From: Microcaldota archaeon
GTDB taxonomy: Archaea; Micrarchaeota; Micrarchaeia; Micrarchaeales; Micrarchaeaceae
Reading direction: 5' to 3'
DNA: 38,713 nucleotides
NCBI GenBank assembly: GCA_021801905.1
Contig: JAKABJ010000004.1
Span: forward strand, 1-38,713
Shown: positions 26,317 through 27,931 of the stretch, in pieces
Layout: each line of letters starts with the position of its first letter
Position numbering within the stretch: position 1 is the stretch's first letter
The notes under the pieces: generated by a model
Told to the model about the DNA's origin: nothing
What the model saw: the letters and a program-made list of their open reading frames with translations, nothing else
Databases searched by the model: none
Program-made: the position numbers and the translations under genes

Positions 26317-26643
26317 CTATCTGCCCCTTGCCCCGGCCTTATATCTCTTTATCAGGGCAATTGCGTGATCGATAGCCTTTCTCACATCCTGCTTGGTTCT
26401 TGCTCCTGTGCATATGATCTTCCCGTTCTTGAAAAGGAGAAGCGCGGATTTTGGGTCATGGACCTTGAATATCGCCCCTGGGAACTGCTCTGGCTCATAA
26501 TCTATGTCTCTTGAGAGTTTTGCAAGGCCGTAAAGGTCTAAGTCTGTATGCAATTCTGCATGGGCAACAATATTTACTATAGTATATGTTGGCTTAAGCA
26601 CTATGTGCTTGCCAGATTTTTTTACTGCCATATAAACACGCAA
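26317..26643 (-). CDS. Single-repeat TATA-binding protein (half-TBP)
   Basis: 'IVNIVAHAELHTDLDLYGLAKLSRDIDYEPEQFPGAIFKVHDPKSALLLFKNGKIICTGARTKQDVRKAIDHAIALI' matches one TBP repeat; only one repeat before the TAG. Confidence 0.9.
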   Translation of the reverse strand: MRVYMAVKKSGKHIVLKPTYTIVNIVAHAELHTDLDLYGLAKLSRDIDYEPEQFPGAIFKVHDPKSALLLFKNGKIICTGARTKQDVRKAIDHAIALIKRYKAGARGR

Positions 26644-26662: not shown

Positions 26663-26670
26663 TATAAATA
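26663..26670. promoter_or_regulatory. TATA-like element TATAAATA in the divergent half-TBP/eL21 intergenic region
   Basis: Most conspicuous TATA-like box in the 60-bp spacer; plausible distance to both starts (TATTTATA on minus). Confidence 0.45.
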
Positions 26671-26703: not shown

Positions 26704-26988
26704 ATGACAAAGAGATCAAACGGGCATTTCTCAGGAAAGACAAGAAACTTTGCAAGGCATCATAAGCCATCAAGCCTTAATACCAGCTCCATAATAAAGC
26801 AATTCGCAATAGGGGATAATGTGGCGATAGTGCCAAAAGGCAATGGATACAATAGCCCGCATCCAAGGTATAAAGGCAGGACTGGAAGAATAGAGGGAGT
26901 GCGCGGCTCTGCATATGTAGTAAAAGTAAATATAATGAATGCAGAGAGGACGCTCATAGTTCCTGCGCTGCACCTAGAGAAAGTATAA
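26704..26988 (+). CDS. rpl21e: 50S ribosomal protein L21e
   Basis: 'FAIGDNVAIVPKGNGYNSPHPRYKGRTGRIEGVRGSAYVVKVN'; ATG at 26704 preferred. Confidence 0.92.
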   Translation: MTKRSNGHFSGKTRNFARHHKPSSLNTSSIIKQFAIGDNVAIVPKGNGYNSPHPRYKGRTGRIEGVRGSAYVVKVNIMNAERTLIVPALHLEKV

Positions 26989-26994
26989 GCCAAT

Positions 26995-27573
26995 TTACCT
27001 GTATCTTCCTTCCCTCTTCGAATAAGGTTTTGTAAACATATAGAATCTTTCCGTTCCTTGAAGCTCGGATAGGACCCTTTCGCCTATTAGCTTTGCAGGA
27101 TCCTGCAGCAATGAAACCCTTGCATTTATATCTACAAAGCTCTCGAATCTCTTTTCATTCCTTGCTTTCAATATTGCTTCGAGGTGCTTTTTGCCGATTC
27201 CTGGGAGCAGCTCCAGAGCATGCTGTCTTATGTTTAAAGGACCAGCATTGTTGAAAACGTCGACGAATCTTTTCTCGTTGGCCTTTATTATTGTGCTTAT
27301 TGCCCTCTGCAATCCGTTCTTGGCTGTTTGAGTTAGATCATCATAACTTATCCTTGCCTTTATGAGCGAGACCTTCTCCCTTTCATCCTTTCCTATATAT
27401 ACTCTCTCGGCAAGCGCCATTGTGGCCCCTAGCTTTGGAGTAACTTCAAGAAGCGTAAACCATTCCTCTCCTATAAGCTGTGCTACAGGCTCAGATTTGT
27501 TCGAGAAAGACTTGCCAGTAGGCATGAAGTCAAGTACGTATGCATACTCTTCTCGTCTTTCTTCTTGCTGCAT
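26995..27573 (-). CDS. DUF655 family HhH protein
   Basis: 'EYAYVLDFMPTGKS', 'HALELLPGIGKKHLEAILKARNEKRFESFVDI'. Confidence 0.88.
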   Translation of the reverse strand: MQQEERREEYAYVLDFMPTGKSFSNKSEPVAQLIGEEWFTLLEVTPKLGATMALAERVYIGKDEREKVSLIKARISYDDLTQTAKNGLQRAISTIIKANEKRFVDVFNNAGPLNIRQHALELLPGIGKKHLEAILKARNEKRFESFVDINARVSLLQDPAKLIGERVLSELQGTERFYMFTKPYSKREGRYR

Positions 27574-27601: not shown

Positions 27602-27931
27602 CTACTTCTGGTTTACTATAGAAAGTATTTTCTTTACATCTTCGTCTGCAAATGTCTTCTTTTCAGAAGCAAGTATCTGCCTGAGCAGCATCTCGCTTTT
27701 TGGCATTAGGTTTAATATGGTAACTATTGCGTTAGGGCTCAGGTATCCGAGCTCTTCCAGCCCCTTCTTGAGCTTCTGCTCTGTGGATTTTGAGCCTGCA
27801 AACTTAGAGGCATGATCATAGGCCACCTGCTGCTCATATGTCAAATCCTTCTCCTTCTTCCTTTTTTCTAGTATCTCCAGTACCTCAGATAGAGACGCGT
27901 TGCTTATATACTTTGACTCTTTTCCTATCAT
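27602..27931 (-). CDS. rpoF: DNA-directed RNA polymerase subunit F (Rpb4 family)
   Basis: 'SLSEVLEILEKRKKEKDLTYEQQVAYDHASKFA'; next to DUF655 as in other archaea. Confidence 0.85.
   Translation of the reverse strand: MIGKESKYISNASLSEVLEILEKRKKEKDLTYEQQVAYDHASKFAGSKSTEQKLKKGLEELGYLSPNAIVTILNLMPKSEMLLRQILASEKKTFADEDVKKILSIVNQK

Follow-up and report, generated by a model that had tools for sequence, protein, structure and literature searches.

A single-repeat TATA-binding protein in a Micrarchaeota genome and the probable history of TBP repeat number in the phylum

The stretch of DNA analysed here (38,713 nucleotides, hereafter the window) encodes a TATA-binding protein (TBP) with a single repeat, TBP-A. 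This protein is very probably paralogue A of the general TBP of Micrarchaeota, with one lobe per chain and acting as paired chains, a form that would have arisen by reduction in an ancestor and been followed by later re-duplication. The window corresponds to contig C4 of G000, a Micrarchaeota genome of 643 kb that is 91.5% complete.

Every textbook TBP is, to our knowledge, a covalent tandem with two lobes, and we know of the homodimeric single-lobe TBP ancestor only as a hypothesis. Single-TBP-domain (monopartite) proteins were reportedly found in some archaea by Brindefalk et al. in 2013 (doi 10.1093/nar/gkt045), a study that lies outside the texts covered by our literature search. That search returned no report of Micrarchaeota having a single-repeat TBP as their only TBP. 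Archaeal proteins with a single TBP domain are thus said to be known already, and what is unreported in the literature searched is a conserved single lobe as the sole kind of TBP in Micrarchaeota genomes. Surveys of DPANN archaea list TBP simply as conserved (PMC8407392, PMC8204110).

The TBP-A gene and its locus

TBP-A is encoded on the minus strand, from 26643 (TTG) or 26631 (ATG) to a TAG at 26317, giving a protein of 108 or 104 aa, respectively (Table 1). It contains one Pfam TBP domain alone (PF00352, residues 20-100, profile positions 2-84 of 85, E = 1.7e-25), which scores 89.1 bits against a curated cut-off of 22.9 and bears out the initial annotation of this reading frame as a stand-alone TBP repeat. 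The motifs noted at that stage (VNIVA, YEPEQFPG, LLLFKNGK and CTGA(R/K)) are all found, the last as CTGAR. Among solved structures the best matches are archaeal TBPs, each matched twice, once per repeat, and the two repeats of the S. acidocaldarius TBP match near equally (65.7 and 66.1 bits). TBP is defined by two tandem repeats in one chain, and TBP-A has one. As first described, no second repeat adjoins it: the stop codon is followed by AT-rich DNA, and the divergent eL21 gene lies upstream at 60-72 bp (initially given as about 60 bp, with the strand of TBP-A left unstated).

Table 1. Features of the TBP-A locus, in positions of the window
Feature	Position	Strand	Basis or remark
TBP-A, single-repeat TBP	26317..26631	-	ATG 26631 likelier start; TTG 26643 alternative
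LLLFKNGK: second intercalating Phe and Micrarchaeota-specific KNG	26419..26442	-	residue counts
Stirrup YEPEQFPG: first intercalating Phe and E-x-E pair	26476..26499	-	residue counts in single-repeat sequences
TATAAATA, candidate TATA box between divergent TBP-A and eL21	26663..26670	.	sequence
eL21 ribosomal protein	26704..26988	+	PF01157; synteny
DUF655 protein (HhH), conserved neighbour	26995..27573	-	PF04919 5.8e-62; synteny
RNA polymerase Rpb4/RpoF-like subunit, conserved neighbour	27602..27931	-	PF03874 3.6e-9; synteny

In nearly every Micrarchaeota locus examined, whether the TBP is single or tandem, the eL21 gene stands divergently beside the TBP gene, and this common locus indicates that repeat number changed without the gene moving. 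The DUF655 and Rpb4 genes near eL21 are inverted in families f1 (the family of the window, Micrarchaeaceae) and f2, and co-directional with eL21 in other Micrarchaeota families. The candidate box in the intergenic region fits TWTAAATA, the genome-wide box of single-repeat relatives, and may be common to TBP-A and eL21.

TBP complement of the genome

A PF00352 search of G000 (E <= 10) gave two matches, TBP-A and an unlinked single-repeat TBP of 98 aa (TBP-B, G000:C18:10647-10895) with about 45% identity to TBP-A; no two-repeat TBP was found at this threshold, and so no full-length TBP coexists with TBP-A in the genome. The initial annotation had made an accessory role depend on a full two-repeat TBP elsewhere in the genome; a second TBP-domain gene is indeed present, yet it too is single-repeat. 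TBP-B, which had been missed, opens A/A, B/B and A/B dimers as possibilities in G000. The same genome encodes one complete TFB, with a Zn ribbon and two cyclin repeats. A search of 23 single-repeat genomes likewise gave no full-length TBP at E <= 10 (the 24th genome searched, G126, belongs to f7 and has a tandem TBP).

The TBP-B gene lies between glycosyltransferase and FAD-enzyme genes in f1, and beside the same glycosyltransferase gene in f2, and TBP-B forms its own ancient clade in the repeat tree (SH-aLRT 99). To judge from its own clade and conserved place, TBP-B goes back to a single old duplication, and much of f2 has since lost it. A viral origin was considered for the single-repeat TBP and set aside: halovirus TBPs in the phage collection match weakly, and the gene of the one inspected, from HJTV-2, codes for about 204 aa.

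Distribution in Micrarchaeota and other archaea

Among 225 Micrarchaeota genomes at least 80% complete, TBP is present in 221. Families f1, f2 and f14-f27 have single-repeat TBP frames only, and families f3-f13 have two-repeat frames. Paralogues A and B occupy separate loci in most f1 genomes, and nearly all genomes of this family keep both; both are present, each as a single repeat, in the complete chromosome NZ_CP060530.1 (Ca. Micrarchaeum sp. A_DKE). Exactly one TBP gene is present in many genomes of f2 and in most of f14-f27. Within the single-repeat families, exactly one TBP match, a single repeat, is found in 26 genomes at least 90% complete (e.g. G039, a single contig of 771,545 bases; G037, 97% complete, 3 contigs; G137, 100% complete), and the absence of a two-repeat TBP recurs over all of these, although MAGs can miss genes. 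The same architecture is found in 153 distinct sequences and more than 100 species, the named relatives being MAGs of Micrarchaeota, some few of them under the labels Marsarchaeota or Mancarchaeum, together with the A_DKE chromosome. A frameshift or an assembly error hiding a second repeat, either of which had been named at the outset as fatal to the claim, is rejected on the strength of the complete chromosome, the 153 sequences and the conserved flanks, and so is chance.

Outside Micrarchaeota, every TBP frame listed is two-repeat (177 archaeal genomes at least 95% complete), including those of small-genome lineages. Some of these archaea give extra weak matches, mostly of about 20-26 bits and always beside a full TBP, which are stand-alone proteins of 95-110 aa or segments of frames of about 320-370 aa. 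The diverged stand-alone proteins of 95-110 aa, seen beside full TBPs in G251, G266, G294, G326 and G346, are probably the monopartite proteins of the literature, and differ in kind from the Micrarchaeota single-repeat TBP.

Several Micrarchaeota loci depart from the general pattern of their families. G145 carries, together with a normal single-repeat TBP, a diverged stand-alone TBP-domain protein of 105 aa (L163, G145:C12:19300-19539) that scores 42 bits and shares about 25% identity with other repeats. A bin assigned to f1 contains a canonical-type two-repeat TBP of 185 aa with an N-C identity of 43% (L005, G017:C43:2733-3251) in addition to two single-repeat TBP genes, and L005 looks mis-binned. 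G139 (f15; nearly closed, 2 contigs) has three unlinked single-repeat TBP genes, an independent expansion. At the end of contig C39 of the f2 genome G059 (L022:1400-1897), a single-repeat TBP is preceded by an in-frame second repeat and a linker; the contig ends inside this second repeat, which is identical to the first over the part that overlaps it. The locus may reflect recent tandem re-fusion, or else the effect of an exact repeat on the assembly.

Functional residues, TFB and promoters

All 153 distinct single-repeat sequences have the minor-groove Asn and the two intercalating Phe. The first glutamate of the E-x-E pair is likewise found in 153/153 and the second in 152/153; the pair is present in 47/47 canonical C repeats, and its two positions are conserved in 21/49 and 35/49 canonical N repeats. 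The pair (C.L3.2, C.L3.4) is a C-lobe signature contacting TFB/TFIIB (PMC7221094), and on these residue counts the single lobe carries the TFB-binding signature, as expected of a lobe doing both jobs. The motifs FPGAI and KNG are Micrarchaeota-specific and are present in both repeats of the Micrarchaeota tandem TBPs, KNG being rare in canonical repeats. TBP-A and TBP-B each keep the full set of DNA- and TFB-binding residues, with no role division visible. A TFB with two cyclin repeats is encoded in all 32 genomes tested, G000 included.

Promoters were analysed by an EM search of upstream regions, compared with shuffled sequences. In G039, which has one TBP gene, the search of 205 regions recovered AA, a gap of two and T(T/A)TAAATA, peaking 25-45 nt before start codons, with a log-likelihood of 188.6 (shuffled sequences: mean 56.8, maximum 70.2). 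The motif of G015, which has both A and B, is alike (164.6, against a shuffled mean of 63.5 and maximum of 77.9). In G000 the 36 upstream regions available are too few, and the signal is no higher than in shuffles. Single-repeat genomes (G039, G015) thus use an ordinary BRE and full 8-bp TATA boxes, and a whole 8-bp box implies two TBP lobes. A preference for palindromic TATA boxes, considered as a sign of a symmetric dimer, was not taken up: the boxes of G039 and G015 are the ordinary TWTAAATA with a one-sided BRE and no clear added symmetry, and are too AT-rich to decide the matter.

Structure of the lone lobe

AlphaFold folding, which covered single chains, models TBP-A (31-sequence alignment) as one complete lobe, S1-H1-S2-S3-S4-S5-H2, with a pLDDT of 88, and the model superposes on TBPs in Foldseek with an rmsd of 0.9 A over 78 columns. 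A natural Micrarchaeota tandem from f9, whose repeats are 71% identical, is modelled with a pLDDT of 96 and a pTM of 0.86, and matches PDB TBPs with TM scores mostly of 0.80-0.90. The modelling of this tandem as a saddle suggests that two lobes of the Micrarchaeota type can form one. Strand S1 has 6 residues in the lone TBP-A lobe versus 11-12 in the tandem; we infer from the models that the rest of S1 would form only across the dyad, so that the unsatisfied edge of the lone lobe would be closed by dimerisation.

Phylogeny of the repeats and of the species

The repeat tree comprises 139 repeats over only 82 columns (39 single, 20 tandem-N, 20 tandem-C, 30 canonical N and 30 canonical C). All 79 Micrarchaeota repeats form one clan (SH-aLRT 99), apart from canonical N and C, which joins the tree between the two canonical clans. 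Placing the single repeat among archaeal N and C repeats, as had been proposed at the outset, gives a separate clan that the tree puts neither inside N nor inside C, with AU p 0.70-0.85 for alternative placements. Within it, tandem N repeats are intermixed with tandem C repeats (9 and 10 changes), the two forming separate clades in f4 and in f9+f10. Constraining tandem-N repeats with canonical N lowers lnL by 40.6, at an AU p of 0.062, just above the 0.05 level; the data do not reject a single re-duplication (p 0.26). The two repeats of Micrarchaeota tandem TBPs are 47-76% identical to each other within a protein.

In a C-versus-N profile score, canonical C repeats score +45 bits, canonical N -43, tandem-N +10.8 and tandem-C +17. 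Single repeats score +2, between the canonical values, and the idea that the lone repeat is a canonical N or C half kept unchanged is rejected on these values.

In the RpoB tree (39 rows, 604 columns), the single-repeat clade f21-f27 is basal in the phylum and tandems occur in three clades (f7-f10; f4 and f6; f3, f5 and f11-f13); the tree requires 4 state changes, and by itself does not separate loss from gain. In G125, RpoB domain 6 is spread over two frames (G125:C2:18986-20214), possibly a frameshift or a split gene.

Proposed mechanism and history

In the proposed mechanism, two single-lobe chains would pair along S1, the first strand of each, to build the usual saddle. The saddle would sit on an ordinary 8-bp TATA box, with two Phe pairs and two Asn in its minor groove. 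One of the two identical E-x-E stirrups would recruit a normal two-cyclin TFB, and the BRE would set the direction of transcription. In much of f2 and in f14-f27 the dimer would have to be a homodimer, since only one TBP gene is present. In the window's family, A homodimers, A/B heterodimers or two specialised homodimers may be used. The homodimer put forward in the initial annotation is supported at the level of the phylum, with 26 one-gene genomes and a normal TFB wherever tested; G000 itself has a second paralogue, which makes other dimers possible there.

As to history, the phylum ancestor would have dropped one of the two repeats of a canonical TBP, the repeat that remained becoming symmetrised, and about three clades would then have re-duplicated and fused the repeat in place. 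A single-repeat phylum ancestor followed by about three re-duplications is most likely the best explanation of the trees and profile scores taken together. Of the relic and the reversion first suggested for this protein, a reversion in the Micrarchaeota ancestor is the likelier, since all other archaeal groups in the sample have two repeats; the repeat tree is also compatible with a relic.

One rival reading is that the working TBP of Micrarchaeaceae is an obligate A/B heterodimer, the canonical lobes having re-evolved as two genes. This is a possibility to be taken seriously, if a doubtful one: the retention of both genes in nearly all f1 genomes, the ancient TBP-B clade at its conserved place and the low A/B identity all speak for it, but the many f2 genomes that kept A and lost B indicate that A alone is enough there, and each paralogue has a complete set of binding residues. 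An accessory or dominant-negative role for TBP-A, which was among the options raised initially, or its being a TBP fragment or an assembly artefact, can be given almost no credence; in some other archaea, diverged proteins of similar length (about 20-25 bits) are indeed found beside a normal TBP, but G000 has no full TBP for TBP-A to accompany, the Pfam score of TBP-A is about 89 bits, its functional residues are invariant, and the same gene recurs in over 100 species and on a complete chromosome.

The main alternative to a single-repeat ancestor with re-duplications is an ancestral tandem whose N and C repeats were made alike by gene conversion, the single-repeat lineages being several independent losses. 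This is unlikely. The high N-C identity within proteins would fit conversion, and the species tree alone permits several losses; against this, tandem N repeats do not score like canonical N, holding them with canonical N costs likelihood (p 0.062, as above), and the separate N and C clades of f4 and f9+f10 indicate that conversion is not continuing there. Less probable again is a primitive single repeat, never duplicated in Micrarchaeota, with two-repeat TBPs arising independently elsewhere and several times within the phylum. The intermediate position and scores of the Micrarchaeota repeats and the single-repeat state of the deepest RpoB branch in the phylum agree with it, but long divergence can bring a reduced lineage to the same tree position, and all other archaea sampled, small-genome lineages included, are two-repeat. 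It also needs Micrarchaeota to branch before all other archaea, against current DPANN phylogenies.

A whole clade of living archaea, including one whose genome is complete, appears to depend on a single-lobe TBP for transcription, and in its sister clades the repeat is seen naturally re-fused at this same locus, with up to 76% identity between the two copies. Small, expressible proteins thus become available for direct tests of the homodimer hypothesis, of whether promoter direction needs asymmetric lobes, and of how duplication and fusion proceeded, and the supposed first step of TBP evolution is open to test in living organisms.

Comparison with known systems

Canonical archaeal TBP (PF00352; PDB 1mp9, 1ais, 2z8u) shares with the Micrarchaeota single-repeat TBP the lobe fold, the DNA- and TFB-contact residues, the TFB partner and BRE/TATA promoters; the Micrarchaeota protein differs in having one lobe per chain, no N/C asymmetry, and FPGAI and KNG. 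The N domain of RNase HIII is also a single TBP-fold domain that binds duplex nucleic acid (PMC7221094, PMC12917281), but it is fused to an RNase, is no transcription factor and lacks the TFB-binding glutamates. The monopartite TBP-domain proteins of some Archaea resemble TBP-A in being one stand-alone TBP domain; those of this type outside Micrarchaeota match weakly (about 20-25 bits) and occur with a full TBP, whereas TBP-A is a conserved lobe of the sole kind of TBP in its genome.
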